A stretch of DNA of 64,000 nt from Alloascoidea africana. Lineage: Eukaryota; Ascomycota; Alloascoideomycetes; Alloascoideales; Alloascoideaceae. Location of the stretch: NCBI GenBank assembly GCA_030581615.1, contig JAKTTT010000028.1, positions 1-64,000 on the forward strand. The letters run 5' to 3'. This document shows positions 2,310 through 50,485 of the stretch, in pieces. A program made the position numbers and the translations under genes. Position 1 is the stretch's first letter. Each line of letters opens with the position of its first letter. A model generated the notes under the pieces. That model saw nothing but the letters and a program-made list of their open reading frames with translations, was not told the origin of the DNA and ran no database searches.

Positions 2310-4373
2310 CTAGGGCTTGGTTGCAACAAATGAAATTGCATTTCTGGCAGCCACTGATGCTCTTTGCAGCTCCTGAGTATCTTTTTCTGTCCAGAAAGTC
2401 TTAATTTCTCTGAATGTTTTGGTTTCATACTCTTGTTGAAACATCCGTTTCTTTTTCAAGAGTTCTCGCATGTGTCGTGGATCTCCGGTTCCGGTGGTTA
2501 TAATTACAGCCGTGTGCTCTGGCAGATTCTCGTATACTTTCTGTAGCCGGGCATTTAGTTTTTCTTTAGCTAAAGTTCGTTTATCTTCTTCAGTAATGTC
2601 CGGTTCAGGTGTTGTTTCTTTAGAACTGCCATCGCTAGCATTTGTTGCTGTTACCCACCCTGAACAGATCTCCATTTCCTTGAATCGTGCCACTATAAAA
2701 TCATAGTTTTCGACATTTTCAATAATTCCGCTGGCAACTTCATCATCATTTGTGCAATGTACATAATGATCAAGATGTCTCCCGTAAGGAGGCCTTTTGG
2801 CGTAATCTACTGCCAAAGATAGCCGCGTCGCATCATTCACTTTCATATTTGCTGCTGCAGGCGAATCTTTAAATCTTGATAACTTTTGATATATGCTTTC
2901 TCCATTGAAGAAGCAGCCAAAAGAAGGTCCCTGCTTCAATTTGGCCTTGACAAGATCTAGGCATGCAGTGGCGTCTTCGACGGAGCTGTGGCCATCGGTG
3001 CCGGTTTGTATCTTTCTCTTCAGATGAGTTTCAGTCACCCATTTGAGAGAAGGTTTGAATCCATCTCCACGGGGATGTTCGAATATGAGTGCTGTGTCGA
3101 TCACATTTCCATGAATTATTCTCAAAGCTCGCAGATCAAATTCTAAGGAATGTCCGATGATAATGTCGTCACTATCTATAATGCTTAAGAGCTTCTTCTG
3201 GATGTCTTGAAGTGTAGTGGTTACATTTTTCAATGTTTCCTCACTTATTCCAGAGTATGCGGTTAAGTAATTTGTGATTTCTTCTTCTGGCTTCACCAGT
3301 TCATCCATTACTACACTACCATCCCATGCTATAAGGGAAGCTCTCGTTAAGACCGAGCCTTTAGCAGTGGTACACATTTCACAATCCATAGCAAAGGTTT
3401 GCCTGCTTTGTTCAGAGCTTTTAAACTTGATCGTTTCTACCCATCCTTCTTCCTCATTCAACTCCCCTTTTCGTGGGTATTCTTGATCTAGATAGTCATT
3501 TTCTGACATGAGCAGATTGTCAATTGTGAGCTTAACATTTCTATTTTTCTTCTTAATTTCGCTCTTATATTTTTCAGAAAATGGAACGGTCAGGATCGCC
3601 TGTATAGGCGAATGTAATGAATTGTTTGTTCCTGCTGCTTTTGTCGGAAAAAGATGGGAAAAATGGTTAAAGAAGCTTAGCTCTTCATTGGGTGAAAATG
3701 GGACTGGGGAAGCGCCTTTATTCACTTCGTCCAGTAAATTGAAATCTGATGAGGTTATACCAGGTATCAGCAAAAACACCACATGGGATATTCCCGCTCG
3801 ATTCTTAGCAATCGTTAGAACAATAACCATCTAATGTATTGTAGGATGTCCAAAAGTGAACTTACTATGGCCTTGAGCCAAACGCTGGGCTGTCCATCGG
3901 CTAAAATCCAAAGTACCAGGCCTCTCAAATCCTAAATTCGTATCAATTAGTTAAGAATACCATTTCAAAAGTAAATAAATTGGACTCACTCCCATGCCAA
4001 TTTTTCTCTCCAGCGAATTCAAAATCGAAAAGCTAGGTGCAACTAGCGAATGTTTTTTCTTCTTATGAAGCTTTCCGCTTGACCGTCGTCGTCTCTTCTT
4101 CTTTAACAGAGCCTTGTTAAGCCCATCATGAGCGTCTGCGTGCTTTATCTTGTCCAAATCCGGACCCGCTATTGTATCTCCATTCTCCATAATAGGAACT
4201 ATTGATTTGCTATCGTTCTTTTCCTGTGATTTTTTCTGTACATCTTGGAGACACAAGGTCTCAATGCTAGGTGTCGAGCTTGAGCTTGAGCTTGACTTTG
4301 ATTTTGAGCTTGAGTTAGAGCTTGAACTTGAGCATTGCAATTTGGCGCTCGCATCAAAAGAACTGGAAACCAT
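2310..4373 (-). CDS. REX1: RNA exonuclease Rex1 (DEDD family), three exons
   Basis: 3'-to-5' exonuclease that trims 5S rRNA, 5.8S rRNA and tRNA precursors in the nucleus. Exons (5' to 3'): 4373-3990, 3931-3866, then 3803-2310, giving about 647 aa. The third exon holds DCEMC (DEDD motif I), later GHSLEFDLRAL and HSSVEDATACLDLV, the expected motifs II and III. Exon 2 encodes DLRGLVLWILADGQPSVW, which the family shows just before a VVxLxxPG motif. For intron 2 I prefer the acceptor CTAAG (intron 3804-3865, 62 nt): it sits 10 nt after the branch site TTCTAAC and aligns WLKAINRAGISHVV without a gap. The alternative TAG at 3831 would give a 35-nt intron, shorter than any other here. Exon 1 is Ser- and Lys-rich and likely a nuclear localisation segment. 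Confidence 0.85.
4276..4333. repeat. GAGCTT-type hexanucleotide microsatellite in REX1 exon 1
   Basis: Imperfect tandem copies of GAGCTT and variants (GACTTT, GATTTT, GAGTTA). On the coding strand they encode a Ser run broken by Asn and Lys. Unit length is a multiple of three, so length changes keep the frame. Confidence 0.7.
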
Positions 4374-4945
4374 TATTTATGAAATTAAAAGAAAAATTGT
4401 TTTTGTACATCCATCTGAACTGAATCGACACCTTAGCCAAGTGCTTTTGAAGCATCGGCTTGTGTCGAAAAGATTTGACATCCCAGGGCGTTGTATGGGT
4501 GTTAAGCTCAACCAAGCTTTATTGTGCACCAAAAGTTCGTCTTACTCGTTTTACGATACGAGACGGCGTAAAGGGGGTTCTGCTACAATAATGTGCCCAG
4601 TAAACTGCTTATAAGATGGCAAAAAAAGTGCTTGCGCTAGGGTGGTACAATTGGAAGAGCAATGCCATCAGAGAGTGTAGATTGAAGCAGTAACAGGATG
4701 AAAGAAGGCAACTAGAGAAGGAATAAAATGTGATTGTTTCAGTTCGACTCCCGAACTGAAAATGGAAAATCTCAAGTCCTTTGAAACGGTTGGCATCTAT
4801 CCCCAGCAACAAGAGAAAAGAAGAAATCAACAACTTTGAGACTTGACATGTTGGAATCTGACCAAGAAACACCCGTACACCTCATTACTTGTTGGGAAAA
4901 AGAGTTGTTTCTTCTTTTCTGGCTTCTAGGGTTCAGGCTAGGTCG
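4374..4945. other. Divergent intergenic region REX1 / CHY-RING gene, with hairpin
   Basis: A 572-bp region with no convincing gene. It contains a perfect 10-bp inverted repeat, TTTCAGTTCG / CGAACTGAAA with a 5-nt loop (4737-4761), and a Rap1-like site at 4869. The hairpin superficially resembles a tRNA T-arm but has no matching acceptor or anticodon arm. Confidence 0.6.
4869..4882 (+). promoter_or_regulatory. Rap1-like site upstream of the CHY-RING gene
   Basis: ACACCCGTACACCT lies 64 bp before the chosen ATG at 4946. The 13-base core ACACCCGTACACC is identical to the copies at 1249 and 58092. Confidence 0.6.
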
Positions 4946-10698: not shown

Positions 10699-12432
10699 CT
10701 ATTTCTTTCCGATCTTTAGCCATTTAGGAACTTTTTTCAAGACCTTTGTTTCAATGTGAGCATTGCTTGATCCAGGCTGGTTCACTATGTTATTCATTAC
10801 AGGTGGCACTTTGGATTTAGACGATCTTCGTTCTTCTTGGATCAGTTCCCTTGGCTGTCTATCCAAAGTAACATCTTCTGCTTCCGATATATCTTTCGCT
10901 TTGGAGAGAAACTCATCTTTCAAAATAGCCTGGGATGATGAAGCTTTCATGTTATCATCCTTCCAGTTGAAGGTCAGTAAAGTGCGAGTAGAGAATCCAT
11001 TATCGTCTACAAGAGTGCCAGCTAAGTTTGTGAGTGCAACTCTGGGGGACGTTAATTGGAGAACAAAGTCATTCTCGGTGTTTCTTAAAGCCGATTTTAC
11101 GAATGAATAGAGATCACCAACTACAATCTTTGTTAGACACCGTCAACGTTTTCCCCTCTTCTGCCATACATACCTGTTTCATTGGGCTTAAATGTTGCCT
11201 CAAGAAAGCTCTGGTCAGGAAATCTGATCCGTATGTCACACTTATCGAATACGGTTAGCAATTGAAAAATTTAAAGTAGGCACTGATTTTGCATGCATAC
11301 TTTTGATACATGTTGCTTTTTATCCAGTTTCGCTTTCTCTCTTAATCCTTTTGTAACTAAAGGACCATTACTGTTGGCTCTTGATGATAGAATGTTTTGA
11401 TACGTTTTTGCTTGTGCAATGGTCATATTGTAAACTTCATCGTCGTCATCATCTAAACATTTCAGGCACAAGACTGTTAGGCAAGAGATATCCAAAAAAA
11501 AGTAACCTCACTATCCATCATACCTCGATTGCCTTGCCTTGATGCTGGCGTGGCGCGATAAACTTGAATTTGTCGTGCATCAGCTGGTTGTTCGATAGTT
11601 GGAGTGGAGAGCTGTGGCCCAGGGCTGATAGACTTTGTAACTTTCTTCAATTCGTTTGGTTCTTCTGTCTTTAGACTCGGATTAGTTTCTATGCTTTTCA
11701 GATTATCATCTCGTCTTTCAGCAGTAGTTGGCGCTTGTGGAGTTGTTCCAAACAATTCAGTGTAAGTTTGTAAAACATCATTGAAAAACATCTTTGACCT
11801 TTCAAATCGGACACGTAAGACACTGCTTGTGCCGCCATTTATCCCAAACGAACTTAAAGAATGATTAAGGCTGCTCAATTCTTTGACGATCGAATTAATA
11901 GTTTGAACAACTGGTTGTTCATAGAATAGCTTATCGCTTCCTTGTACTTCGACTGCCCTGGCAGTCAGGTTTAGCACTCCTCTACTCTTGGTTTCAAAAT
12001 GTTGTAAAATAGACCATATCGAGGTTGATGATGGAAAGTTATCCACTAGCAAGTTAGCTGGGATAGAAGAGGGAATGACGTTGGCTCCTATAACCTGGAG
12101 CTTGATCGCCACCAGCTTGCCATTATCCTGCTTTTTCCTCTTTGCTTTAACAATCTCCAGCTTGGCGCCCTGAGGTAAGTTTGCTAACCGTATAGGCAAT
12201 GAAAGATCGAGCAGTGAGTTTGAGTGCCTTAAAAAATGGTTAAAATTCAATTAAAGGTCAGTAGTAAAGCCACTTTGAACTCCTAAACATCGCCATACTT
12301 TAGAGCGAATTGAGTCGCGTCACCAAGCTTGAAAGTTGCAACTGATCTTTGCAGTACATCAATCAGAGCTGTCCCTGGAGTGACTTTAACCTTGACGCTT
12401 CGAAGCCCGTAGGTGACATGGACCTGTGACAT
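10699..12432 (-). CDS. UBX4: UBX-domain protein Ubx4 (ASPL/TUG family), five exons
   Basis: Cofactor of the AAA ATPase Cdc48/p97. Exons: 12432-12299, 12227-11524, 11452-11301, 11240-11174, 11120-10699, giving 492 aa with phases that close exactly. The N-terminus (MSQVHVTYGLRSVKVKVTPG ... LDLSLPIRLANLPQGAKLE) is the TUG-type ubiquitin-like domain. A helical DDDDEVYNMTIAQAKTYQNI segment matches DEEDYELTVEQAKKYQKM of yeast Ubx4. The UBX domain begins at CDIRIRFPDQSFLEATFKPN, and the end VPKWLKIGKK matches VPKWMKLSKK. Acceptors of introns 1 and 3 are AAG. In intron 2 the donor could be GTATGA (used here) or GTGAGG a few bases later; both keep frame. A CACGTG lies 66 bp before the ATG. Confidence 0.9.
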
Positions 12433-13854: not shown

Positions 13855-16800
13855 ATGGTGGACCCAATAAGCTCTCCATCCCAAAGTGGCACGCTATCGC
13901 TCAAAGTATGACTTTCAGGATCATCTGTTTAAGACCAAGCCTGACCAATCGGCATTTTTCATAGATTAATGCGGCCTGGGTTTCGTATGCCCACACCGTC
14001 TGCGCGCTATCAGCTTTTTTCACTGCTTTGATTGTTGGCTGCTGCTTGCACTATGAGAAGATCGTTCGTAATGCCTGGTTTGGCTATCCAGATGAGTGGT
14101 GAGTGCCTTTAACTTGTTCTTCTACAGCTGATTGTGTTGTCTGGTTCTTTTTTGCTGACTCCATCCGGGATTTTGCATCTCAAAAGGTTTCCAAGTGTTT
14201 CGGCGACAATTGGTGACAGATACCCAGAACGCTCCCTCTTCCAGATTCTAATAGCAGTCACCTCAGGCCCTCGGTTTCTGCTGGTCTTCTTGACATACTT
14301 CATAACGTCCCATGTGCGTCAAGGCTCGTCTTTACCGCTTGCGCTGCTGTTAATAGGTACCCTAAGAACTTTCACCTGTGGTGGATGGGTATACATTACC
14401 TCAACAGACGACCATGACTGGCACGACATTTTCATGATCAGCTACATCATTTTGACTCTTCCTTGGGATATCTTGGTTGTACTGACAAGCCAAAAGGGAA
14501 GCAGCTCTAAAAAGTACAGAACTATTCTTGCATCTACGTTTTTTGGTACCATTGTACCTCTTATTTATTGGTTCATCCAACACAAAGTTCATAGGCGCCC
14601 AGGAGCATACACAACCTATGCGTTTTTTGAATGGTCTCTAATTCTACTGGATGTTCTATTTGATTCAGTATCAGCCCTGGATTTTAGTGGCCTGTCTGTA
14701 TCTATCTCAGGTACTGGATTCAACTCCGTTGTTGCCGAGAGTGATTCTTCACATAACGCCTCAGTGGGGACAGCAAGGGCAGAGGCCACCACAAATGTGC
14801 CAGCACAAACGTCTCTGAAACTGGTTGATATCTATTCATTGACGAGACTTTTGGTCATAGTGGTCAATTCCTACATGTTCTGGACTGTAGTCACTGCTAT
14901 TCCTCTTCTTCTCTGGTATTTCCCACTTTGGTACATGGGAATATCTGGCTATGAAGTAGTGATTGTCGTATATGCAGCTCCAATACTACTAGGCGTGCCT
15001 TTTCTTCGTTCATTTTTGCTCCGGTTTCCCCAGATTTCAAATCTCCTTGTCGTTGGGTTGGGTATTGGATCTTGGCTGGTCAAAGAGCCTAGCACAAGAC
15101 TTCTGGTTCTGACTGCCGGTGGTGGTTTTGCGACTATATCTCTAGCAACTTTATTCTACAACAATTCTTTGGTCGGTCCAAACCTGTCTCTCTTTAATGC
15201 AACTGGGTTTATTTTGGGACTGGCTCTTTCTTCTATTGGAAAATTTGGATTCTGGACTAATAACCCTATCTGGCCGATTATGCACGAAGAAAATGGTGGT
15301 TATAATCGAACTGGTCTAGCTATAGGAATAATTTCCGCTCTGCTTTCCACCAGACCTCAGTCTAAACCTTTTCCACAATTGCAATCTTCAGGTGACAAGA
15401 GCAAAGCAGGGGGAAGTGGTCTTTTGGCAGCATTTGGCTTGGGCGGCCTTTTATTTGGTCTGTTCTCCATGCTAACAGATTCGTCTACTATAATCACTTG
15501 GGTATGGTCTGGATATCCTGTAAGTGGTCCTACCCCTGTTCCTCACGGAGTGTTGACTATTGCTGCCATGCTTCTTGGTACTTATCTGGGCATAGTAAAA
15601 AGATCGGTCACTGGAAGCTTACAGTACTATCTGATCGGATGTACTGGAGCTTTAACGCTGTATCTCTTTGAAGGTTGGCTGGGCTACATTGGCGGTCTTG
15701 TCTTTACAGTTTATATCACTTCCATTGCCCCGGTAATATTGGGAAATGCAGGCCTGTACAACCCAGCGCTTTCGTTTGGTGTCGGATCAATTTTAATGAT
15801 ATTGCTTCTCCTTGGCCATGTTTGGGTGGTAGCTTATGCTTTTGTTCCAGGCGGACCATTGCTGCGTGAAAGAACTGATATCATTTTTGGAACCACTATG
15901 GCAACTATTGGAGCTGGTATATTCAATAATGTTCTTATTTCGTCAGCTTCTTTAGCTGGTACCAGCAACAAAAAGAAAGGTTTGACCCCTGTTTCACCAT
16001 CTTCTTTTGGAGTTGGAATTGTTCAAAGAATCGCTTCACAAACTGTGTACTTTATCACAGCTTTTCTTGCTTTGTCTGCTTCGATTGCAGTTTACCGCTA
16101 TCCTAAACAAGCGCCACAACCATATCACAAGGATGAAAAGATACTAACTGCTGGCATATGGACTATACATTTTGGTCTGGATAATGATATGTGGGCATCA
16201 GAGCATAGAATGCGCGATCTACTAAAAGACCTTGAGATTGATGTTATGGGCTTACTGGAATCTGATACTCAGCGTGTTATTATGGGCAACCGTGATCTTA
16301 CTCAACAGCTCGCTGAAGAATTAGGAATGTACGCAGACTTTGGCCCTGGACCTAATAAACATACCTGGGGAGCAGCATTGTTATCAAAATTCCCTATTGT
16401 AAACTCAACGCATCATTTACTTCCAAGTCCAGTTGGCGAATTAGCCCCAGCAATTCATGCTACTTTGGATGTCTATGGCACTTATGTGGACGTTGTTGTA
16501 TTCCACTCTGGACAAGAGGAAGATGTCGAAGATAGGAGACTCCAATCTTTAGGCGTTCGTGATATTATGGGATCTAGCGATAGGCCCATGATTCTTCTCA
16601 GTTATCTGGTTACAAAGCCTCTCCAAGGAAACTACAACAACTATGTTTCTGAAAAGTCGGGCATGTCCGATATCGACCCCTCCGATTGGGACCGATGGTG
16701 TCAGTACATCTTGTATAAGCACGTCAAAAGATACGGATATGCTAGAATAAGCAGGTCCACAATTACAGATACAGAAGTCCAGGTAGGCAAGTTTATGATT

Positions 16801-16956: not shown

Positions 16957-19900
16957 TTGTGAATCCTACATCTTTAGTGTACAAACTTGTTACTATGCTT
17001 TTTTTGTGTTGCTTTGCGAATCCGTGGAAAGATAATAACGAAAGAAGATAATAGAGTAGTTTCATGATTGAGTTATGTTTGAGAGTTGCTCAGGAACGGG
17101 GTTGGCGAGTTGTAGCTGTCTTCCTGAGAACTAGTAATTTGTATGTTTTTTTGGCTCTATATTCAAATAGCTAAACTAATTCTTTTTCTTTGTAATGTTG
17201 TCAAGTCAATTCTTACTGTAAGAGATTAAAAGATGTTAGTGGTCCGGTTAAGAAATGATTTCTTGAGAATGAGATACTCTTGAAAGCAAGGAGTACTACG
17301 AAATATCCAAGCGCGAAAAAGTTAAGAATAGGCAATCTGATGTATTCCCAGATGTTGAATGTGACTATTTCACATAACCTTATTCAAAGAAAAAATGATA
17401 AAGGAGGATATAAATGAAAGGCACTAGAGATCCTCCAAAGCACTAGAATAAATTGAAAAGCTCTACTGATTGATTCGTACAAGTAGTGATAATTCTTTTC
17501 ACAACTATCAATAGAGTGTTCTAAAATTCTGCTATCCACTCAACGTTTTACAAAAATGATTCTGTATGAAAACTTTATACGATACTCCTAAATTCTTCAT
17601 TTGCAATTTTTTTCTGTCGGAAAAGTGCTCTCTAATTCTACCTGAATCTTTTGCTTATTCTATAACCTAAAATTCTATTGTCAATTCAGATCTGGGTCTC
17701 AGAGTGGAAACCATGAAGGGGTTTACATTCGACAGTTTGGAATAAAATCGGATCATTTTGGTTACTGTTTCTGCTCCTTGTATAATGCCCAAATCATTCA
17801 AGGTCACTAGACCATCAAATACTCATAGATCTTACAGATAAGTGTATTTTGATATCGCACACTCAAATTTAAAAGACGTAGGTTGTTAAGTTTAGTTAGA
17901 AGCATAGATGGTTCTTATTTCTCCTATGTAGTAACGCGCGTTGATAAATGCTGGGAAAAAATAGTTGATTTAGCTCACAAACAAGCCAAGAGTATAGTCA
18001 AGGGCTTTTACTCTGCGTAACCGAACTAGATTATATGAGAATACAGTGGAGTTTTGTAAAAAAAAAGGCTATTCTACTCCTCAAAAACGGGAAGAGTGAA
18101 TAGATTATGCGTCAAAAAGCGGATGATAAATCTTTTTTAGGATAAGAAGCAAAACAAACGTGGGTACGAAATAGTGAATACTTACAAATATTACTGAAAC
18201 TCTCAAAAAATGTAATTTTGAGAGGGAGCTTTACTTCTTTAAGTGGTTAGCATCGACTTTAAGAGGACAAGGCTCAGGAAAATGGTATGAGTTTTGCTGT
18301 ATATAGCCTTTGTGTTGATGCACTTTTGTCCTGTATTCTCTCAAAGGCCATAACAACATGAAAAATTTTGGGACCTGCTTTTTGATTGAGTTGAAACAGT
18401 TACATAATTCCGGTGTAGCTTTCTTAGTTGTTTAGAACTTAAATATTGTTAGGTCCCGAGGAAGCTAGGGGTATGTGATTCACACATATAGTTGCTGAAT
18501 TGCTATAGAATAGGGATCTAACTACTTATATAGTTATAGATTGAGCTCACCCGGGGTGGATATCACTTAAGTCCTGACAAATATCACTCTTTGGCTTACC
18601 TTTACTATGAACAAGCAAGACTCGCACTGGTCTTATGAGAGTCACATATGAGTTGAAAGCCTCATTTAAAGTTTGTATCATTCGAAGCTTATTAACCTTA
18701 TTTTAGCTATCTGGTTCTTAATAGCAAAGAGAGTAATCTGCATCGATTATAACCATCAACACACACTAGGAAGTACCTTTCCTGAATGCAACTATACATT
18801 AGTCTCTTAATGATGCGCCACAGAGAAGAGCAAAATATTTAGCTTAAATGGTTATTAGGTCGGTTCGGCTACAAAAATTTACTTGAAACAGATGCTCTTT
18901 TCCCACTAACCCTTTGATTTTCAAACGAGCTATGAATTTTACGGATAAACCCAGGATCGGTGAGGCGCAGAAATATGAAGATACGACCTGCTTCTCTCCT
19001 GTGGGTAGTAAAGTATTTTCCGCTTTCAGAAGTAAGTAAGTATGCTTAGATTCTTAACTTGTTCATCGCGTGTATCATCTTATAACAGCATAGTTTACTC
19101 TAAAACAAAGCTTTCGTTTTTTTCATCTTCTCCTAAAAGGGACAGTGATTTTTTTTAACAATAAAGGCACTTACAGATATTTCCATACTGTTTTTTGGAA
19201 GATGAACTTCCTCTGTTTGCGAATGGAGTTAAACTTAATTTAACCTTGTTTTTCCTACACCAGGCCCATGCCGTGGCTGGTGCTTTTATCTATCACCTTC
19301 TAAATCTCAAAAAACCTAGAACTTCTGGGATTCTATATAACTAAAATTTTTATTTGGGGTTATGATAATGCATTACATACTTCCAAAAATGCCAGGTTCT
19401 GTAACCGTCTACTTAATGAAATAAGATGGAGAGAAGCATTGACGATTCTTTGTTTTATCTCAGTTATTAAGACCATGAAAAAGTTCTTACAAAATGATGG
19501 TGTTTTTCCATTTCTAATTTTGTCTTAGTCTTGAAACATGCGCCAATTTTTACCTAGATAAAAAAATAAGACTGTGGATAAATGCATTTTCAAACCGCCA
19601 ACACAATATTCGAACTTTGTATCTTCATCTTTAGGTGCAATACAAAGCATAAGAACATGGCAGAAAAAAGTTTAATGGATATCCAGTTGCGAATATCGAT
19701 CTGTATGCGAACATGCAGACGAAGCGAAGCTCAGATTAAAGTGCCCCCTTCCACTAGACCAATATTTACAACTGTAAACAACTGGACTACTGAATTTTGG
19801 AGTTTCAGACTTGCAATGATAAACAATTAAATGATAGAGGATTATTCTACGCAAAAATAAAACCAAAAGTATAAAGAAATAGATTATCAGAGCGCAAACA

Positions 19901-21388
19901 GCACATCCGAAAAACAGACTATATTGATCACTAAGTAGGTACGTTTACACTGATTGCCGCTGTACATTTGGCAGGGGATTATATCCTGGGCATGTAACTG
20001 TGGCGTACCGTAAATGTTTGTCCACGTTCTTGTACAGTGTGAAAAGGATTATACCGCTGAGACATTGTGCCCTTTCTTTTCTAGTTCATATGCCGATAAT
20101 AGATACAGATCGGTGCGCAACAACAAGCATTCAGCCTGACAATTGAAAACATAGATGAAAATCGTGGACGTGCATTATACATCTGATTCGATTATCATAC
20201 TCCAGCCAGACAGAGACACAGGCAAGGGCATTGGGTATGAGAGCTGGCGCTACCCAGCGAAATTAGCAATTCAAGGGTTCAGAATGTAGAATCGCAAGTA
20301 TGGGATTCTATATATTTGTAAGTTTTCATTAATCTCATAAATAGGCAACTTGTTGCTAGAATCAATCTCTTCCTCAAAGTCATGGAATAACAATGCCTTT
20401 TCTCAGAGTTCAGAAAATCTGATATTTTCTCCAGATATTTTAGTTCCATTGCTTTGCCACTCTTTTAGTCAAAATAGGGTATGCGCTCCTTTATTATTCT
20501 CCAAAGCCATCACTCAAAATCATTCCACCGTCATCATCCAGAAAAGCTGATGTTAAAGTTCTGGATTTGGGAATTTGGCATCCTATCTGAGAATCGTAAT
20601 GCTGTCAACATTTCAATATAATACAATGCTCTTTCACAACATACAGCTAGCATCTGATAGTGATCATGTGTAAGAAGTAGTTTTCTCTATTGAATAAATA
20701 ATTAGTCAGTGTTTTTCATTATTTTTATCATCATGTTACTATGTATGGAATGAGAGAGCAGTAAGATACTACCTGTCTTGGACAGAGCAACTCCCGATTG
20801 AGTTTCAACTTGTGTCAAGCCTTCAACTGAGATTTCAATTAAATACTGAATTCAGGTATGGCCTCTTTTTGTTTGTTTACACATCGGCCGTCAAACGATC
20901 CACTTAATTTTACCTAGTCAAAGACTTGTTTCAATCACATGGTCATGTCCCCAACCTGTGAGCATGTCAATATTCCAACTGTTTGATAAATTAAAAAGCC
21001 CGACCTCCATTCCACCCATTTCTTGTTTTAAGTACTGTTATGTGATAATTGTTGCGCCAAACGTTTCTCCATCTTTTCGATTTCTTCTGTTATTCCTGTT
21101 AAAATTATTCAATAATTTTTATTATCTTTGTAAATACGATTTACCTGTGTTTCTCTTTTTTGATGAGCTATGGAGAAGTCTTGATTGTGGAAGTCAACAG
21201 ATTTTTCATTTTTCCTATCGTTTCTTCCATTCCCTTAGTTGTCTCTTCCAAAGGTTTTCGAGCCATTTTGCCGATGGTGATATCATGTCGAATCTCACGG
21301 GCCCAGGGATCCCAGATACGCACACTATTGCAGCAGATTCGAAAAGAACAACAAACCTCTCACCTGGGAAAAAGTCTTTCAGGATTCT

Positions 21389-21610
21389 TTAGAGCCAGCT
21401 AGTTAGCGCAGTACCAATACAGTAAAGTGCATAGAACAGTCCCCATATTGACAATGTGCATAACGCCTCTGCATAAACAGTATGCTGTTGGACATATTGA
21501 TCCTGCTCAACTGATTTCTTAAGGCCTTGAAAATGCAAGTTGTCATGCCCTGGGGGTTTATTAATTAAGATTTTATTCATCGGAAAATATCTGGTTCGGG
21601 TACGTGGCAT
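21389..21610 (-). CDS. Possible small single-pass membrane protein (73 aa)
   Basis: An ATG-started frame of 73 codons. The first 45 residues are polar and basic; the last 25 or so (ALCTLSIWGLFYALYCIGTA) form one plausible membrane helix ending close to the C-terminus, as in tail-anchored or small organelle-complex proteins. I recognise no family. It lies alone inside the gene desert, so it may be chance. Confidence 0.25.
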   Translation of the reverse strand: MPRTRTRYFPMNKILINKPPGHDNLHFQGLKKSVEQDQYVQQHTVYAEALCTLSIWGLFYALYCIGTALTSWL

Positions 21611-21696
21611 ACTAAACCAATAGACAGGCCCCTAGAGGAAAGATTCTAGGCTGAACTAGGCAACTAGTTTTCAGGTAAAAATGGTATATTACGGGG

Positions 21697-21747
21697 TCCA
21701 ACTCGCTCGGGTTGGGCTTTTTTGGGACGAGAAAGAAGCGAGTTGGA
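21697..21747. other. 11-bp perfect inverted repeat (hairpin) in the desert
   Basis: Arms TCCAACTCGCT (21697-21707) and AGCGAGTTGGA (21737-21747) are perfectly complementary. The stem extends by three more positions if G-U pairs are allowed, and an inner CTCG/CGAG pair could stack. It is GC-richer than its surroundings. It could be part of a structured RNA or a terminal repeat; no partner copy was seen. Confidence 0.5.
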
Positions 21748-23316
21748 TCTGGCATATTGTTCCAGTCCCGCGTTCTGGACCATCATCACCACCGATACCG
21801 GCACATCCTTAACATGCCAAAAATACGTAATAATTGGAAATAAGGGCGTTATGTGTTAGCATGCTTTTGAGGGAGTTTACGGAACTGTTCATAAACCTCC
21901 TTTCCTAGGGCTTTCAAAGGTGTTTTATGTTAAATTTTTAGATGACATCAATTCTAACCCAATTTCATTTCCAACCTTGGAACAAGACTTGATTTAGCGA
22001 AATGGGTATGGAACTGAAGAAGACTTGGAGCGTCTGTTGCTCCTATGATCGATACGCTTGGGAGCTTTCAATTATTGTATTTTAGACAGACAGGCAAAGA
22101 TGTGCTGATGGCAGGTATTAAGTGGGACACTGTACTACGAAGACGCTTGGCTAGCCTAAAAATTTCCCATTGGGGAAAACTGAGGCCGCATTACTCGCGA
22201 TCATTAGGCTTGTTGGGGCAGCGGTTCACTCATCTCTTTGTAGCAGTGTACGTACTAATAAGGAGGGAAAAGCGCTTCAGATCTTTTCTATTTCGTTGCT
22301 TGGATCACCAAGAACAGGTTGGAAAGGTTGATGACCTATGCTGACAGTGGCGATCTATCCCTGCTTTATCCATCTCCGAATCTAGAAACAGGAATCAATC
22401 GACATCAACATTCTCCAAAGCGTAATGCTGTTTAATTTTGAATACTCAGGTTATGTCTCCATAGAAAGGGTCTTGTCAGAGACCCTACCGATGCCTGGTC
22501 ATGCTTTCAGTATATTTATCGGCTTTCAAAAACCCAAAGCGCTAATATTATAAGCGTGCTCTTCAGTCTACAAAGGGTGGCTTGAATGGTAATAGAAAAG
22601 GAAAAGAGCATGAGGTAGACAGCTGATCGACAAAGACTTCAAATTCAAAGGACCGAACTCGCCCATTTAGATAGTTGTCCTAGGAGTCCAACAAATGTCG
22701 TCGTTCTATTTTATAACTTTAATCTAAACCAGCTATATTTCATTTCAGGAAGGATCTACAGCAAATGGTATCTTCTGTATCTTTGGTTTTGCAAGGTTGG
22801 GGCTAAGGCTTGATAGTCTACAAACGCTTGCTCTATGATGCTGAGAATTAAAGAAAGTCAAATGAATTTTGGTTATATATTTTGATTATGTTCAAGATAA
22901 TACATTTTGCACAAGGCTGTTGTTATTCTTCAGAGCTACTTGTGAAAGCAAACAAATGAATTATGATACAGAATATCCAATTTGAAAAAAACAGAAAAAG
23001 ATGCAATTCAGGCTTTATGATGATGATAACGATAATGATGATGCACATTCACAACCATAGTGTATAGTAGTAGATAAATAAAAGGTTGAGAAAAAGGGGA
23101 GATAATAAACAGGTAAAAAAAGAAAGTGGGCAGCTTAGCCTCTTGTGATAATATTTTTTGGTGAGCTTCAAAATAATGGTATAGCAGAGTTAGTAATACG
23201 AATAACAGAGAGTGTTGAGAACTGAACGGTAAAAACAATGCAACTGAGAGTGATTCACAAAACCATAAAACAAAGTGTATTTGGGATTGACACGGAAACT
23301 TTGAACAGTCATTTCT

Positions 23317-32543: not shown

Positions 32544-32586
32544 GGAGGTGTGCTTCTCCTCTCCGATGAAGAGGAAGACCACATAA

Positions 32587-33245: not shown

Positions 33246-33744
33246 ATGGTAAGGAAAGATTTATGATATAATTCTTTGGGATCTCCACGTCCTTTAGGTT
33301 TTTGCACGCTACCAAGAGGATTAAAAGTGGCATCAGATTTAAAAGCGTTCGACAAGTGCGAGCGAATGTGATCTAACGACATTTACTTTTCAAATGAAGG
33401 CTTTTTCCAGTTCTCTGTACAACACGTTTTTCAAAAGGAACTCCGTTTATGTTGCCTCTATCTTTGCAGGCGCTTTTGTTTTCCAAGGGTATGGACGACT
33501 CGACTAGTCCGAAATTACGAGATGGTGGAAATTTAACATAGAAACGATTTTAGATTCTTTGATGTTGCTGTAACGAAATGGTGGGACAGCCATAACCAAG
33601 GCGTATGTTTCTTTTACAATCGATTTGACAAAAAATTGGTTCTCGGGTCTGACCTTATGTGCTTTATAGAAACTGTGGAAGGATGTCAAGGGAAAGTTTG
33701 TGCAGGCAGGAGATGATGATGAGGAAGATGAAGATGACGAGTAA
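33246..33744 (+). CDS. QCR9: Cytochrome bc1 complex subunit 9, four exons with an ATG-only first exon
   Basis: Small inner-membrane subunit of respiratory complex III. Exons 33246-33248 (just ATG), 33400-33488, 33554-33602 and 33670-33744 give 71 aa (S. cerevisiae: 66). The product M-AFSSSLYNTFFKRNSVYVAS then IFAGAFVFQGFFD matches MSFSSLYKTFFKRNAVFVGT then IFAGAFVFQTVFD, including the single membrane helix, and ends in the acidic DDDEEDEDDE tail. As I recall, S. cerevisiae QCR9 also has an intron right after its ATG, so the position looks conserved. Intron 1 ends ATGAAG; an unspliced message could instead start at that internal ATG (MKAFSS...), which is the main alternative. Confidence 0.88.
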
Positions 33745-34064: not shown

Positions 34065-34553
34065 TTAGTCGAAAAGACCGAATCCTAAAGAAGGAGTTAG
34101 TACCAGATCAGAAAAGTGATTTTGAAAATTGAACTTACCCATATCATCATCAGACTCTTCAGCCTCCTCTTCCTCCTCTTCGGCAGCAGCCTCTTCAGTG
34201 GCAGCAGCAGCGGCACCGGATCCAGAAGCAGCGGGACCTCCTGTTGGGACAGATGAAAGTTTTGTGTTACCTTCAGCAATCAGTTCTTCAACGGACTTTC
34301 CCTCAACTTCGGAGATCAGCTTGTTGAGCTTTTCCTCATCAACATCAATTCCAACGGACTCCAGAACAGAGGTGATATCAGAGGCAGATGGGCTTGTCTT
34401 GCCAGCAGAGGCGAGCAATAGGTAGGCAGCAAGGTACTTCACTAATTACATAGAAAATTGTATGTTAATGATGAGGTCGATAATAAAACATAAGGAATCT
34501 GTGTCTGTAAAAGACTCTAGATCGCTTAGAGATGTCAATGAATTGTTCATACT
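34065..34553 (-). CDS. RPP2: Acidic ribosomal stalk protein P2, start codon split by an intron
   Basis: P2 forms the ribosomal stalk with P0 and P1 and recruits elongation factors. Exons: a single A at 34553, then 34441-34139 and 34084-34065, giving 107 aa. The protein [20 protein letters not shown] ... [20 protein letters not shown] ... [13 protein letters not shown] has the complete family pattern, including the Ala-rich hinge and the conserved acidic end. The reading frame upstream of KYLAAY has no ATG; splicing donor GTATGA to acceptor AATTAG joins A to TG and creates the start codon. The last intron (TACTAAC branch site) separates MG from FGLFD. Whether it is P2A or P2B is not decided. 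Confidence 0.9.
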
Positions 34554-37327: not shown

Positions 37328-38178
37328 TTACGACTGCTGCTGTTGTTGTTTCTTTTTCTTCTTCTCTTCAATTTGCTCAACCTTCACTTCAGTCAGTCCC
37401 TTCTCTTTCAGCAATCCAGTTATGTATTCCTCTACTTCATCACCAACGTCACCTTGGATTACTATTTCCTCCTTCTTTTCGGCATTTTTGGTTACACTTG
37501 CACCAGTAGCGAACTTTGAAGCAAATGTTTTGGCCAGTTTCTTCATATCAATTCCAAACACTTCGAGACCAGCAATAGCGATAACGTGCTTGCGCTTTGT
37601 TCTTTCAATTCGTTTAATCAGAACTTTGCTAGCGAGCTTGACCTGTAGTTGGCGCTCTGCCTTTGCTTCATCTTTTTCCTGTTGCTTTTGCAAAGCTTTT
37701 TCAATTTTGGATTGTTTTTCATTCAAAGAGAGATTTGAAGTTGCCACCACAACTCCATCTAGACAATTTAAGCGTTAGCATGAAGGGTTGTGAAAAAGGG
37801 GAATCACACTTTAACAAACCTTCTGAATATAGCTTTTCGTAAATCTCGGGATGTGTTTTCTGGACGTTTAGTCTACATTTCTTAAAAAACCCGCCAAACT
37901 CGCAATACTTGGGAAAAATCACAATATTAGATCTCTGTGGTTAAACATTGTTCAAAATAGTTTCAAATGATGTTCTTACTTCGTAGGGATAAGAACAAAT
38001 AGGACAATACAGGACGTTATTTAGCTAAAGATCGGTAAGCAGTTAATAATCTCCGCTAAGCCAACAATGCGAGAAAGCATCAGAAGATCTTGATTTCCTT
38101 AAGCGCTTTACATTATCATTTAAACCGCTTATGACAATTCTGTTTTAAATCACTTACCACTACCGCGACGTCTGCCAT
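37328..38178 (-). CDS. TMA22: Translation machinery-associated protein Tma22 (DENR homologue), four exons
   Basis: Partner of Tma20 in recycling 40S subunits after termination. Exons 38178-38158, 38024-37980, 37907-37820 and 37758-37328 give 194 aa (yeast: 198). Exon 2 encodes LYCPICSYPYE and joins YCEFGGFFKKC in exon 3, matching CGICSYPPEYCEFSGKLKRC. The C-terminal SUI1-like domain (RTKRKHVIAIAGLEVFGIDM ... KKLAKTFASKFATG ... EIVIQGDV) is complete. Intron 2 ends in CCCAAG; using the CAG 27 nt earlier would also stay in frame but would add nine unconserved residues and leave a 45-nt intron. Intron 3 has the unusual donor GTTTGT. Divergent from SKI6. Confidence 0.92.
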
Positions 38179-38530: not shown

Positions 38531-39590
38531 ATGGTATGTCTTTATAGTGTATATTGTTGTTTCCATTCATACACTGACAGAAATCAATAGTCACGATTAG
38601 AATTATATTCCCCTGAGGGTCTTCGAGTTGGTAAGTATCATGATTTTCAGAAAACTTCAAAAACTCATCAAAACATTAACAAACTGATTTGAAATATAAA
38701 GATGGACGGCGATGGAAAGAGATTAGGAAATTCGAATGCAAAATGAACACATATGGAACTTCATCTGATGGATCATCATTTGTCGAAATGGGGAATACAA
38801 AAGTTATTTGTAGAGTGAATGGTCCTATGGAACCACCAAAAGGTCAAGTATCAACCAAAGCCAATATTCAAGTAAACTTGAACATTGCCGCATTTAGCAC
38901 AATTGAAAGGCGGAAACGACAAAGAAATGATCGGTATGCTTTATTGGAAGATGGATCTGGAACGTTGTTACAAGTTACTAAGATAAATGGATAGTCGAAC
39001 TCAAGAGCTATCAGCAGCTATAAGACGAACAATTGAGCAAGCAATCATGACGCATTTATATCCTCGAACGCTTATCTCGATCGATTTACAGGTGATTGCT
39101 CAGGATGGAGGTGTTCTTGCTGCCTGTGTCAATGCAACGACTCTGGCGTTGATAGACGCTGGCATATCAGTTTATGACTACGTCTCTGCTGTCTCGATTG
39201 GATTATACGACACGATTCCTTTATTGGGTATGTTGAAGTGCTATGTTATGTTATTGAGCGGATTCTAACTTCTCTGTAGATCTAAACTCTCTGGAAGAAA
39301 TGGACCTGGCCACACTGACAGTAGGAGTAATAGGACAAACCGATAAAATTGCATTGTGCATGGTGAGTTACTTGTATTGCCTCTTTTTACCGTTTCGACT
39401 TTTTCTTGTATCCCGAGATAAGCGTCTAATTGATTTGGTCTAGATGGAGGACAAAATGCCATTGGACCGGCTGGAGTCTCTTTTGGCCATGGGTATATCA
39501 GGATGCCATATCATACGCGAACTGATGGACAAAGAGGTGAGAAAGCATGGCAGCGAGCGAATGGCCAAAACCGGCCACAAAGATATGTAA
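38531..39590 (+). CDS. SKI6: Exosome core subunit Rrp41/Ski6, six exons with an ATG-only first exon
   Basis: RNase PH-like ring subunit of the RNA exosome, which degrades and processes RNA in nucleus and cytoplasm. Exons 38531-38533 (ATG), 38591-38630, 38702-38933, 38995-39227, 39280-39362 and 39444-39590 give 245 aa (yeast: 246). Spliced text M-SRLELYSPEGLRVDGRRWK matches MSRLEIYSPEGLRLDGRRWN. Later segments include MTHLYPRTLISIDLQVIAQD, LALIDAGISVYDYVSAVSIG and MMEDKMPLDRLESLLAMGI. All phases close exactly. Intron 2 ends in ATAAAG; the others end in TAG. As in other eukaryotic Rrp41 proteins the ring is probably catalytically inactive; I did not check each phosphate-binding residue. Confidence 0.93.
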
Positions 39591-39669: not shown

Positions 39670-39751
39670 ATCCAGCCCTTGGGGGTTCATTCTCTACAAC
39701 AACCGGATCTCTTCTCCAACTCCAACATTACAATTCAAGACTTGTCTGATC

Positions 39752-42609
39752 ATGGCGGATCAACTAAACGGGTATATGCTTTTTTCTATTTTGTTAAATG
39801 GCGTAGTGGCTCTAGCGGGCTTTGGTATGCCTCAACCAAGACGGAGTTCTCCAGCTAACCCCCACCAGCGCGAACTATGTGCCCCTTAGAGGCCGGCAAA
39901 AGTCCAAGAGATGGGTCACCGAGTCCACAAATTATGACGGAGACGATTGGTAAGATTACTTGTTGTTGGACACGTGTATTTATGCCTGTAAACGTACTTT
40001 GGCTAACGCTTCGTGTGTGCTACAGGGAAGACAGCGACTACGACTATGACGACGACTATGAGGATGGGAATACGCTTCCAAAGGCTGCTCCGCCACCAGT
40101 CCCTCAAATACCCGAGCAGTTCAAAAAGCCTCGAGGTTATGATCAAGCTGAAGATCTTGCACCCAGATCAAACTATCAAGTTTCATCTGCAGCTCCAAGC
40201 TCAGTTCGACCTAGTCAGCCTTCTCAATATAGCTACGATAGCTCTGATGACGATGACGATGATGATCCCTACACCAGCTCCAGACTTCGCTGGCAGCCTG
40301 ATCATGTCCCGGAACCAGAGGTAAAACCTCCCCTGGAACATACTGCTGCCGTGGCAAAACCTGAAAGCCCACTTCCTACACAGCCTCCTGTTCAGCAACT
40401 GCCACCGAGTTCAAATCACCTGCCAGAACAGCAGGAACCAACTCCTCCTCAAATTGTGAAGCAGGAAATTGTGTCTCAGCCTGTAGAGCCTAAGCCAGTG
40501 CCCCGCCCCCAGCCAATTGATGATATTTATGGTGGTGATGATTATGACCAGTATGAGCCTGTACAACCGTTGGCAACTTCAAACAGGCAAAGCATTGGCG
40601 AGATTGAACCAGCCGATCGTCAAAACGATGGAAAACATTCTCCTATAAGCCAAGGGAGACTAACTTCTTACAACAACGAAGCAGTTAAATCCGTTATAGA
40701 CGATTTGACAAAGGCTTTAAAGCTGACCAAAACTAAGAGCAATTCTCCTAGTCATTCACCAGTTCATACCGCTCATGATGGGTCTGAGCAGATAGTTTCA
40801 GAACCTCTATCCCAACCTTCAGCAATCATGAAAAATTTCCGGGAACCTTCTGTAGAAGCGCATCCTGTAGAGACTCAGACCGAGACAAGCCCTAAACAAT
40901 CACAACAACCGTTTTCTCTTCCTATTCTACAACCCTTGAACGAGCCCCTTTCCCCTCCTTCACATGTTTCAGATACCACATCAAACACAACTTCTAATGA
41001 TAATAATATTAATAACAATAATAGAATTTCAGATGAGGACGAAGAGTTGAACAATGTGTACGCAGACGTTATGGGATATTACGGCAACAGTGAGAGCGAA
41101 GACGAATATAGTAAAAACCAAGCTCCCACCAGCTCATCACAAGCAGCAGGGCTTCCGCAAGTTAAGAGTGGTTCTTCGCTTTCCCTTCCAAGTAGTCACG
41201 AAAGTCCTGCTTTGCAACCGAAAACCGAGGTTCCACATGGTCATACACTTGTCGAGAGACGGGTGGAAGATTCGCTTTCTGATAGTAGCTTGTCAATTGC
41301 AAGTAGTAATAATAATGAGGCTTTCAATGTGCCGCATCTGAATAAACAATCTACTTCAGAAGAAAAAGCTCCCACCATTGAGGATCACAATCATCGTGCT
41401 CTCGAACCCGAAGTTAAACATGACCTTCAAAATGCTTTCCCTCTCTCGAGAAACGAAGGTCTCAGTAGCGATGGGGATGTTTCTTCAATGTCCTCTAGTT
41501 CTTCTGATGATATCGACCTTGCTGGAAGATGGGCACCAGATCCTTCTGCACAAGAACCAACAAATCTATCACCTTATGAGTTGGCTACTCCGTCAAAAGA
41601 TAAGGGCTACGGTTCTGATCGATTGGCAGATGAGATTATGGATTTTATCCATTCAGATGAAAAAGACAGCTCGAATGAAAAGATACAAGAAAGAAGAACT
41701 TCAAGCATTCCTAGCTTAAATAATAACAGCTTGAATGATCCAGTTGAGCATCTGTCTATTGATCGGATTTTGGAAGGAAGAAGGAAAAGTCAAAGCAATA
41801 TGCCAGTACCCGAGTTTAGTATTACAGATGAAAATTACTCAATTAATAATGGTATTGCAGTTGTTGATCATGAAGAATCATCAAAAGACCCTGAACCAAG
41901 GCCACTTGCACAATCTCGTGATACAGTCGAGGAGCTAGTTTCCGACATCAAGTCTGAAGGGGCGGCAGGTACTTCGAGAGATGCAGGACGAAGAGAGTCT
42001 CAGATCAAGGAAAGCTTTACTGAGGATTCGCTAGTGTCGGAAGGATCATTAAGGTCTCCAGAAGCAAAACACTCTATGCTTGACGACCTTGATTTAGAAT
42101 TGGCCTCCACAGCCAAACCCAGTACAATCGAGTCAAACAGATTCAGTCAGTTACCAGAGACACCATCGCCTACCACTACTCAAATCGTTTCACCCACTTC
42201 AACGAGCACCAAATCTGATCGACCTGTTCCTCAGTTTAAGGCAGTAGCTTCTCTTCCAAGTTCAGAGCTGAGAAAGCAAGCCTATTATGAAATATGGCAG
42301 GCCGAATATACAAAGGATACTGGTCTTCAAGATTGGTTATCTTCAGCTCTGAAGAGTACTGTTTACTCTCAGCAATCAACTATTGCGACTCCACATGCAT
42401 CTTCTGCCTATAAGCAGGTTCAATCTCAAGGTTTGAATCGTCATGCTTCTATTACAACCAAAGTGCAACAGTCAGCAGCCCGAAGCTCCAGACGTATGTT
42501 TACAACTTCAAGTCATGTCATGGAGAAGGTAGGAGGAAATGCACACAATTTTGCAAAAGGATTCTTGTCTCGAGGAAAGAAGAAGATTATGAAATCCCAG
42601 CAATCTTGA
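39752..42609 (+). CDS. Large disordered fungal protein with DGDDW motif, three exons, function unknown
   Basis: Exons 39752-39771, 39869-39949 and 40026-42609 give 894 aa. The spliced N-terminus reads MADQLNGANYVPLRGRQKSK then RWVTESTNYDGDDWED. A basic RQKxRW segment followed by YDGDDW is a motif I remember from conserved fungal proteins of unknown function. Most of the protein is Ser-, Pro- and acid-rich and likely disordered, with an Asn microsatellite near residues 345-360. A short conserved-looking segment near the C-terminus (SSELRKQAYYEIWQAEYTKD, then TGLQDWLSSAL) precedes a basic end. Such an architecture suggests an adaptor of the cortex or cytoskeleton, but that is only inference. 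Starting at 39877 without splicing would miss the conserved N-terminus. Confidence 0.8.
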
Positions 42610-42938: not shown

Positions 42939-44183
42939 TTAGTGAAGATATCTCATTACAGCCTCGAAAGCTGCCAGAGCTGCCGCATTCGCAGGGAATG
43001 ATCTGAACAAAGCAATTGTAGTAGGTTAGCTATTGTTAATGTTGAAACACGAGAAAAACATCTCACCTTAAGATTGAGGGTACAAATCCTCTGAAGTACC
43101 CTCCCCATCCTTTCGTTTGGTAGACCGCTTTGCAGGCTTCCATCCAGGTTTTGTACTTGGGGTTTAAAATACTATCAGTCATAATTTGTTGCTTCACCAC
43201 ATCCGATGGATACGCAACTATCCAAAACACGGTCGCTGACAATCCACCAGACCAAAAATTTATCGATGGGTCTGATAATTTTGTGTTTCTTTTAAAGTAT
43301 TGTGTGAATAGCTCATAGGATCCCCACCATGCGATGAAGTTTGTTCTGAAAAGCATTGTTGCAAACAGACCTTTGAAAAGACCCCTTAGACCATTTTGCT
43401 TAATCTGTAAAGACGATTCGTGTTAGAAATGGCAAAAGCATACTGGTGTTTAAACACGTACTAAAACACTGGCACAGTTTATTGGTCCTGTGTAGAGTTT
43501 AGTTCCAGCATCATACTGGACTTGTAACCGGGCTTTGATATTCTCTATTGGCGCAGCGACAAAACTGACAGTCCACCCCGACATACAACCTGTAATTTCT
43601 CTTGTTAGTGCCTCCATCTGTGCATTTTGGAGTTTCAGATATATTCATACCCGCTATGCAATGTCCGGAGAGAGGTAGAACTGGTTGGTCATGATAAACA
43701 TTTTCTTTCAAAAGTCGCCGGTAATTGTGCAACGACCCGAGCATTCTATCAGAATGAGATTAGAATGCACACAAAACAACCAAAACGCGACCAAACCAAA
43801 GACCTTACACGCTATCCATTATCATCCAGCCTACCAAGGGAGGTGTAGCTCCCTTATAGAATCCTTTTATGCCTTCATTTACAAACGTCTTGTAAACTGC
43901 ATCCAGGGGTCCTTTGAACCTGCCCTCCGATGTTTGTAACCTGACCTTGATCGTATCAAATCTTGACATATGACAGTCTATTAGCATTTGCCCGATTTTC
44001 TCTTATCTTGCGGCTATGATCCACTGGCTGTCTCCTGAAGTAGTTGAAATATCACACATACGGGTGCCCCACTGATAACTTGGCAATGCCAGAAAACACA
44101 CCAGCCACGTAGCCGAGGTACCTCGGTGGAGGAGGTTTGACCTGGGTATCTATCGTCTTCTCATCTTTGAACTGGGCACTCAT
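42939..44183 (-). CDS. Mitochondrial carrier (SLC25 family, YMC/CRC-like), six exons
   Basis: Inner-membrane metabolite carrier. Exons 44183-44062, 43961-43809, 43745-43651, 43589-43462, 43404-43067 and 43002-42939 give 299 aa, the normal carrier length. The three repeats each show the signature: GHPFDTIKVRLQ, APIENIKARLQ and YPSDVVKQQI. The text GFYKGATPPLVGWMIMDSVM and the end SFPANAAALAAFEAV recall fungal carriers annotated as carnitine/acylcarnitine-like. The substrate cannot be set from sequence alone; Ymc1, Crc1 and Ort1 are the nearest S. cerevisiae types I know. Intron 1 ends in GTCAAG and splits the Pro of the first PFD signature. Confidence 0.9.
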
Positions 44184-48909: not shown

Positions 48910-49047
48910 GATTATAATTTTAAAAGGCGGGATTACCAAAAAGTGAAAGCGTCTCCAAGATCGATTAAGGCCACCCCTGAACAAAAAAGATTGGAAAAGT
49001 TGATGAGGAGTGAAGACTATGAAGGTGTGTTCAACTTGATAAAGTGG

Positions 49048-49059
49048 TCACGTGAGTCA
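49048..49059 (+). promoter_or_regulatory. E-box in the TFG1/MMM1 divergent promoter
   Basis: TCACGTGA (49048-49055) overlaps TGAGTCA (49053-49059), a Gcn4-type word. It sits in the 207-bp gap between the two start codons, 62 bp before the MMM1 ATG. Confidence 0.5.
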
Positions 49060-49116
49060 CGTTATCTTTTCGGCTGAACAAGGCAACTCACCACCAAGAG
49101 GGAAAGTCCAAGACTC

Positions 49117-50485
49117 ATGGCATTTCCTTTAGGGACTTCGGACTTTGTCACATCTACGACGTCAGCTATGTCCAGTGTGGCAACTATTGTGATTGAAAAC
49201 GGTAGAAATGGCCAACTGGAGGATTTACTAATCAGGGCTGCAAAGGGTGAAATCCCAGAATCTTCTAGGTAAGTAGGTCATTGTGTTTTACAAATGCAAC
49301 ATCACTAATTAAACAATAAGATGGGGGTTTTCTCATGGTTTTATAGTACGCTCACTTTGATCTTGAATTTAAACCCAATTTTTAACCTGAATCAAATAGA
49401 TAGGGCAAGCAAGCGTCATATTAGTGTTCGCCTGTTTCATCAAGTTCTTCATATTCGCAGAGTCTTCGAGTCCATCGGCTGGAATATCCTCCCTGCCTTC
49501 CTCTTTATTGATACCCCGTTTAAAATCTCAAGATAAAAAAACACGACCAGAGCCTACGGCCTCTACATTTGCCATTCTCGAAAAAACCTATTACAATGTG
49601 GCTACTCATTCTCCAGAGTCTCTTGATTGGTTTAATGTGCTAATAGCACAGGTAATAAGCCAATTTCGAGATGAAGCAAGCACAAATGGAAAATTGGAAA
49701 AAAGTTTAAACGAGGTTCTTTCGAGCACTCATCTCCCAGACTATATAGATACAATTGAAGTCACCGAGGTCGATATAGGCGATGACTTTCCTATTTTCAG
49801 CAATTGCCGGATAAAGTATTCAGAAGAAAACTCTGGATTGGTATGTGCTCATAGATGTAATCTTGGAGTATCACCCTTTTTAACCTTTTGCATGGCGCTA
49901 TAGGAGGCCAAAATGGATGTGGATCTTTCTGATACACTGACGCTGGGAATCAAAACGCGGCTACTTTTGAATTACCCTAAGATATTAATGGCAGCTCTAC
50001 CCATTTCGCTTAGTGTGTCTATTGTCCGCTTTTCGGGGTGCCTTACTGTATCTCTTCTACCAACTGAGAATAGAAACTCGGAAGAGGAACGAAATAAAAG
50101 CAACGCTCAGCCTAACGCATCTTCAGACTCGAACCAACGGAAGCCAAGTGCATCTCTCCTATTTTCGTTCGCGCCAGACTATAGACTTGAATTTCAGGTA
50201 AAGTCGCTTGTGGGATCGCGGTCGAAATTACAAGATGTTCCCAAAATTGGTGAACTTATTGAATCTAGGCTTCGAAAATGGTTTGTTGACAGATGCGTTT
50301 CACCACGGTTTCAAGAAGTCAAACTTCCTTCAATATGGCCTCGCAGCAAAAACATAAGAACGCCAATGCATTCCAGCTCAACAAACATTCCAACAAGTGG
50401 AGCTTCTTCCATTTCCAGTAATCGAGATGGCGTAGCGGCGAGCAGCGCACCAGTTTCGTCCAGTGCTGTAGAGAGTGAGAGCTAA
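49117..50485 (+). CDS. MMM1: ERMES subunit Mmm1, four exons
   Basis: ER-anchored, SMP-domain subunit of the ER-mitochondria encounter structure, which moves phospholipids between the organelles. Exons 49117-49268, 49321-49345, 49400-49840 and 49904-50485 give 399 aa (yeast: 426). Splicing restores RWGFSHGFIIGQASVILVFA then CFIKFFIFAES, the single membrane anchor at about residues 51-80, matching WSFAQGFFVGQLSIVLLFIF. The SMP domain starts near ILEKTYYNVATHSPESLDWF and ends near KLPSIWPRSKN; a Ser-rich tail follows. Intron 1 ends in ATAAG, and exon 2 is only 25 nt long, so automated gene finders could miss it. Confidence 0.95.

Follow-up and report, generated by a model that had tools for sequence, protein, structure and literature searches.

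The window analysed here is a stretch of 64,000 nucleotides from the yeast Alloascoidea africana (contig JAKTTT010000028.1, positions 1 to 64,000 of the forward strand), and its subject is the 3' splice acceptors of the introns in its protein-coding genes. A first-pass annotation had named nine introns ending in AAG and had proposed that about a quarter of introns end in this way. Analysis of the window and of the genome assembly (23.18 Mb, 138 contigs) indicates that AAG acceptors look real and seem to make up a somewhat larger share than in the few fungi for which figures are in print, with the base at position -3 of the intron apparently read mainly as not G. The nine named introns are as follows.

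3804..3865, minus strand, second intron of REX1 (REX1-2), GTAAGT...TTCTAACGATTGCTAAG, AAG end
11241..11300, minus strand, third intron of UBX4 (UBX4-3), TGCTAACCGTATTCGATAAG, AAG end
12228..12298, minus strand, first intron of UBX4 (UBX4-1), 3' end TTTTTTAAG, AAG
14099..14186, plus strand, second intron of CWH43 (CWH43-2), 3' end CTCAAAAG, AAG
33249..33399, plus strand, possible intron of QCR9 directly 3' of the ATG (QCR9-1), 3' end AAATGAAG
37908..37979, minus strand, second intron of TMA22 (TMA22-2), ATCTAATATTGTGATTTTTCCCAAG, AAG end
38631..38701, plus strand, second intron of SKI6 (SKI6-2), 3' end GAAATATAAAG, AAG
43962..44061, minus strand, first intron of a mitochondrial carrier gene (carrier-1), TGCTAATAGACTGTCATATGTCAAG, AAG end
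49269..49320, plus strand, first intron of MMM1 (MMM1-1), CACTAATTAAACAATAAG, AAG end

AAG acceptors in the window

For each named acceptor, alternative AGs and their reading frames were tabulated to 60 nt downstream. Eight of the nine introns were supported by this audit or by homology, and QCR9-1 is compatible with either reading: spliced, the gene reads ATG/GTAAGG...GATCTAAC...AAG and yields MAFSSSLYNTFF (MAFSSS...), and without splicing an ATG at 33394 yields MKAFSSSLYNTFF (MKAFSSS...). An in-frame, stop-free CAG or TAG was absent within 60 nt downstream in five of the eight (REX1-2, UBX4-1, CWH43-2, SKI6-2 and MMM1-1), and an in-frame CAG was available in the other three (UBX4-3, TMA22-2 and carrier-1). 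The annotation had further held that each junction restores conserved residues, which homology bears out for six introns (UBX4-1, UBX4-3, CWH43-2, TMA22-2, SKI6-2 and carrier-1), whereas the support for REX1-2 and MMM1-1 is reading frame.

For UBX4-3, the Pfam UBX score was 48.1 bits with AAG and 29.5 bits with the CAG 30 nt downstream, and for carrier-1, where splicing at AAG gives GHP/FDTIKVR (a slash marks the junction), the Mito_carr score was 189.1 bits with AAG and 157.4 bits with a CAG 21 nt downstream. Splicing of TMA22-2 at AAG gives CPICSYPYE/YCEFGG, which aligns there ungapped with human DENR and with which the Pfam DENR_N model is matched over positions 1-37 of 37, the AAG model being the one scored. 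SKI6-2, which has no in-frame YAG within 60 nt, likewise gives GLRV/DGRRW, ungapped there against Saccharomyces cerevisiae Ski6. The junctions of UBX4-1 and CWH43-2 are spanned by a full-length TUG-UBL1 match and a Frag1 match of 172.4 bits, respectively, the latter with the sequence YPDEW/FPSVSATIGDRYPER, and UBX4-1 has no alternative in-frame AG to +60. REX1-2 has none from its branch site to +60 and its junction falls outside the RNase_T Pfam match; an in-frame TAG 27 nt upstream is present but lies 5' of the branch site. The MMM1-1 junction lies outside the Pfam MMM1 match and also lacks an alternative in-frame AG to +60, an out-of-frame TAG at +26 being open across the stretch tested. Removal of MMM1 introns 1 and 2 (the second at 49346-49399) gives WGFSHGFI/IGQASVILVF, a motif of Mmm1 that lends MMM1-1 further support.

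A self-training gene finder was applied to the window together with 200 kb from contig C1 and 40 kb from contig C5; its intron score was blind to base -3 and its starting motifs were GTRNGT and CTRAY-like. In the whole window it called 27 introns, of which five end in AAG. By a score difference of 0.4 it replaced the UBX4-3 AAG with the CAG 30 nt downstream, whereas UBX4-1 had a margin of 21.9. CWH43-2 was put in the wrong place, the carrier gene went uncalled, and in TMA22 and in MMM1 two introns were merged into one. The carrier gene (42939-44183, minus strand; six exons, 299 aa) was assembled by hand and is presumably carnitine-carrier-like.

Frequency of AAG acceptors

After self-training, the donor matrix had A at 0.77 and G at 0.16 at +3 and G at 0.95 at +5, with a CTAAC-like branch; the introns thus carry GT donors of the GTRWGT type and a CTRAY branch site and look like ordinary U2-type introns. 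Among all 95 gene-finder introns, base -3 was T in 53, C in 24, A in 15 and G in three, and among the 68 outside the window it was T in 35, C in 21, A in ten and G in two. For each intron we defined a margin as the drop in score once the exact intron, or its donor, is disallowed. With a margin of at least 2 on both counts, 50 introns outside the window remained (T28 C13 A9 G0), and with a margin of at least 5, 33 remained (T20 A7 C6). Eight gene-finder rows (six in the window and two GAG calls on C1) were retained in the 95-, 68- and 50-intron tallies but excluded from the analyses of skipped nearby AGs and of AG depletion and from a set of 73 introns, whose AAG share of 17/73 was set aside as an estimate because 13 of its introns, five of them AAG, were hand-picked.

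Wrong calls would be expected to land on AGs in the downstream exon, where AAG outnumbers every other NAG over the first 60 nt (AAG:GAG of 153:96, of 367 NAG), so that GAG can serve as a gauge of error. By this gauge, with 0/50 GAG at a margin of at least 2, gross mis-calling of acceptors was rejected. By coordinates, seven of the ten AAG junctions outside the window lie inside Pfam matches (Dcc1, CENP-H, Zn_clus, GTP_EFTU, DUF1681, WLM and Ribosomal_L22e), the last in the gene for ribosomal protein eL22:

contig C1:179743-179803, plus strand, intron of the eL22 gene with an AAG acceptor

Here the alignment to solved yeast eL22 is ungapped at the junction. Use of AAG by a ribosomal protein gene indicates that AAG is not limited to poorly expressed genes.

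A second sample was drawn from the whole genome by pattern, with no coding model: GTAAGT, GTATGT or GTGAGT, then CTAAC, then six non-G bases and NAG. These patterns matched 198, 177 and 103 places, respectively, compared to 115, 80 and 46 for a reversed-pattern control. The sample took in 100 of the 198, 99 of the 177 and 39 of the 103 places, counting the first AG that lay 8 nt or more beyond the branch A and dropping repeats; one repeat in the GTATGT set and one place in the GTGAGT set already present in the GTAAGT set were excluded. The 231 first AGs obtained had T115 C60 A43 G13 at -3, background not removed, an AAG share of 18.6% (95% interval 14-24%). The proposed quarter describes the window, where the 30 hand-placed introns from REX1 to MMM1 comprise eight AAG, 19 TAG and three CAG, but not the genome, in which AAG would end roughly 12-19% of introns, or one in five to eight.

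Acceptor choice and the base at -3

Most introns, whatever their acceptor, end at the earliest AG lying 8 nt or more beyond the branch A. Among the 50 introns with a margin of at least 2, this was so for 7/8 AAG, 27/29 TAG and 12/13 CAG introns, and among all 68 for 7/8 AAG, 33/38 TAG, 18/20 CAG and 1/2 GAG introns. AGs less than 8 nt from the branch A were frequently skipped, irrespective of their -3 base. The absence of GAG among the 50 introns contrasted with an expectation of 7.5 from local composition to 9.4 from local G-before-A (p = 3e-4 or less). Since G is nearly excluded and T is favoured, position -3 appears loosened towards A and not ignored. C and A seem to be only weakly told apart there, but selectivity at -3 as such is not lost.

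Splicing factors

Genes for U2AF65, U2AF35, Prp18, Slu7 and Prp8 were all found in the genome, Prp18 and Slu7 scoring above the Pfam cut-off. The first-pass annotation had singled out the two U2AF genes for inspection; both are present, so neither is lost, and U2AF35 carries a substitution.

contig C2:192633-193206 (locus L028), U2AF35 gene with two introns ending in CAG and TAG, 300 bits to fission yeast U2AF23

In the alignment to U2AF23, position 34 of the single U2AF35 gene found is Thr, in place of the Ser34 of the human and fission yeast proteins. Ser34 makes a bond to the -3 uridine in the structure from fission yeast, and mutants with S34F/Y take U, C or A at -3 and reject G (PMC7505975). 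In S. cerevisiae, Prp8 Gln1594 and the Prp18 loop lie at or near -3 (PMC10711555). Both are conserved here (Gln1594 numbered via 3jcm_A), leaving Thr34 as the sole departure among the -3 contacts examined. Loss of Prp18, Slu7, U2AF35 or U2AF65 was rejected as a cause of AAG use because each gene was found, as was an altered Prp8 Gln1594, the residue being Gln. No relatives of U2AF35 by which to gauge the frequency of Thr34 were found in the viral-contig and genome-contig collections, so that Thr34 as a cause of AAG tolerance is a lead only.

Other features of the window

A gene at 34068-34445 (minus strand), which presumably encodes the 60S acidic protein P2, contains an intron, GTAAGT...TACTAACTCCTTCTTTAG, just before its FGLFD end. 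This intron keeps the reading frame and contains no stop codon, and could therefore be mis-annotated as coding. About 6.3 kb at 16957-23316 lacked any gene-finder call or Rfam match in a window that is otherwise gene-dense, and an Rfam scan of the window gave nothing at the gathering threshold. In the gene model at 39776-42609 (plus strand), the first two introns, with GAG and CAG ends, look unreliable, and its 5' end is doubtful.

Interpretation

The explanation that we favour, and consider likely, is that these are U2-type introns following a first-AG rule with U2AF35/U2AF65-type recognition, in which the main demand on -3 is that it not be G, and AAG ends about 12-19% of introns. The statistics of AG use indicate that the spliceosome takes the first AG about 8 nt or more beyond the branch-point A, and composition indicates that it chiefly avoids G at -3, with T best, C second and A acceptable; AAG consequently ends that share of introns. 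By its genes, the recognition machinery is of the U2AF35/U2AF65 type with conserved second-step readers. If the -3 pocket of U2AF35 prefers pyrimidines only weakly, perhaps in part through Thr in place of Ser34, introns with A at -3 may persist.

Several points weigh against this explanation. All acceptors were placed from genomic DNA sequence and protein comparison, and the 8-nt cut-off was selected after inspecting the data; with a cut-off of 5 nt the first AG was used by 6/9 AAG, 24/27 TAG and 11/13 CAG introns (n = 50). Compared to the base-before-A expectation, T at -3 is in excess and A in deficit (p = 1e-4, n = 50), so that -3 is still selected. Between branch and acceptor, one AAG was seen where 7.8-10.9 were expected, although the GAG control, with 0-1 seen and 6.2-8.7 expected, is depleted upstream of acceptors too, and the depletion test is hence not specific to AAG. 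At loci in the window, C1 and C5, CAG and TAG are scarcer over the initial 28 nt of an exon than deeper in it and AAG is not, which suggests that AAG is a poor competitor. Thr retains the hydroxyl of Ser, so the effect of the U2AF35 substitution may be nil. The AAG share falls to 12-13% if all GAG in the pattern sample is counted as background, near the 11% RAG implied by a figure of Y89 for other fungi, quoted second-hand in PMC5677156. Finally, for AAG alone across the whole genome (GTAAGT...CTAAC...AAG), the reversed control gave 42 matches and the real pattern 39.

This last comparison is affected by word frequency: in 304 kb, TGAATG occurs 200 times and GTAAGT 98 times, and CAATC 746 times and CTAAC 379 times. 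The control words are thus about four times commoner locally, and a scaled control predicts, as a rough figure, about ten AAG matches and about 29 overall. With the donor permuted to GATAGT, which occurs 150 times locally versus 98 (1.5 times as often), there were 16 AAG matches versus 39, about ten when scaled. After the scaled control about 28/169 are AAG, near 17%. The raw 43/231 exceeds 11% (p = 0.0004), the 9/50 from the gene finder gives p = 0.09 against the same value, and the GAG-corrected share is not clearly above it. On the exon counts, A at -3 is accepted but probably competes less well. As a separate observation, the scarcity of CAG and TAG just downstream of acceptors hints at selection against stronger competing sites, despite the presence of U2AF35.

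Among the alternatives, plain base composition has about an even chance of being sufficient: intron ends are T/A-rich, AAG would be the weaker allowed form of a fungal HAG acceptor, and the machinery would be unchanged. The -3 bases do fit local composition once G is removed (p = 0.36, n = 50; p = 0.05, n = 68), the second-step readers examined are present and, where compared, conserved, and the consensus stated for fungi is HAG (PMC7138796). In S. cerevisiae, splicing of synthetic introns is as good with AAG as with YAG, natural AAG introns being rare and splicing less well (PMC8496845). Against composition stands the excess over the 6.3% AAG of Yarrowia lipolytica (9/50, p = 0.004; 10/68, p = 0.01), the figures being unadjusted for A+T content.

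It is unlikely, if conceivable, that Ser34 to Thr in U2AF35 itself loosened the reading of -3 as a mild natural counterpart of the human cancer changes at this residue. There is one U2AF35 gene, its residue 34 touches -3, S34F/Y discriminates only against G, and the rule here is near not-G; yet Thr is chemically near Ser, T at -3 is still favoured and no further fungal U2AF35 for comparison was found in the contig collections searched. More doubtful still is an extended version in which this change replaced a YAG rule with a not-G (HAG) rule in the lineage, so that AAG introns could spread almost neutrally; it would be an evolved and tolerated form of the specificity change of human U2AF1 S34 mutants. 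That many AAG calls are misplaced and the true sites are nearby YAGs is very improbable, for although the gene finder chose CAG for UBX4-3 and errors would yield AAG (153/367), they would yield GAG too (96/367), which is missing from the 50 introns, five of the eight introns in the window lack any YAG within 60 nt that is in frame and stop-free, and homology prefers AAG in eL22 as well as in UBX4-3, TMA22, SKI6 and the carrier.

The earlier proposal of a U2AF/Prp8/Slu7 step relaxed at -3 thus survives in part: AAG appears genuine, discrimination between C and A appears weak and U2AF35 Thr34 would fit, but G is rejected, T is favoured, Slu7 is present and Prp8 Gln1594 is kept. Should RNA data confirm the share, gene finders built to expect YAG would place wrongly about one in every five to eight introns here and perhaps in relatives. 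If Thr34 is the cause, this yeast would be a natural experiment on a residue that is mutated, with altered splicing as a result, in human cancers of the blood and lung, and it would become directly testable how the reader relates to genome-wide splice-site composition.

Comparison with known systems

The closest likeness is to other fungal introns, with the consensus GURWGY, DYURAY and HAG (PMC7138796), with which these introns share a GT(A/G)(A/T)GT-like donor, a CTAAC-like branch and a non-G base at -3. Because HAG and not only YAG is already the fungal consensus, relaxation is a matter of degree. The difference lies in the share of AAG, about 12-19% here compared to 6.3% in Y. lipolytica, where GAG is 3.1% (PMC13309789), and to 5.7% RAG in Fusarium (PMC5677156). 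A literature search for an AAG-rich fungus turned up no such case among the papers listed.

Human U2AF1 S34F/Y resembles the present reader in tolerating A and rejecting G at -3 and in departing from wild type at the same residue (PMC7505975). In contrast, residue 34 here is Thr and not aromatic Phe or Tyr, and T is still favoured. First-AG use is similar for A, C and T, but A is under-represented and T over-represented relative to base-before-A. S. cerevisiae, which scans to HAG without U2AF1, likewise uses the first suitable AG past the branch point and tolerates A at -3 (PMC8496845), whereas the present yeast retains U2AF35 and S. cerevisiae acceptors are overwhelmingly YAG. Strictness for YAG at -3 is also lost in prp18-deficient S. 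cerevisiae (PMC10711555), although Prp18 with a conserved loop is present here and GAG is hardly used. Given the HAG consensus and the lower AAG and RAG shares published elsewhere, AAG use in this yeast is a strong case of a known fungal pattern, not a new kind of splicing.

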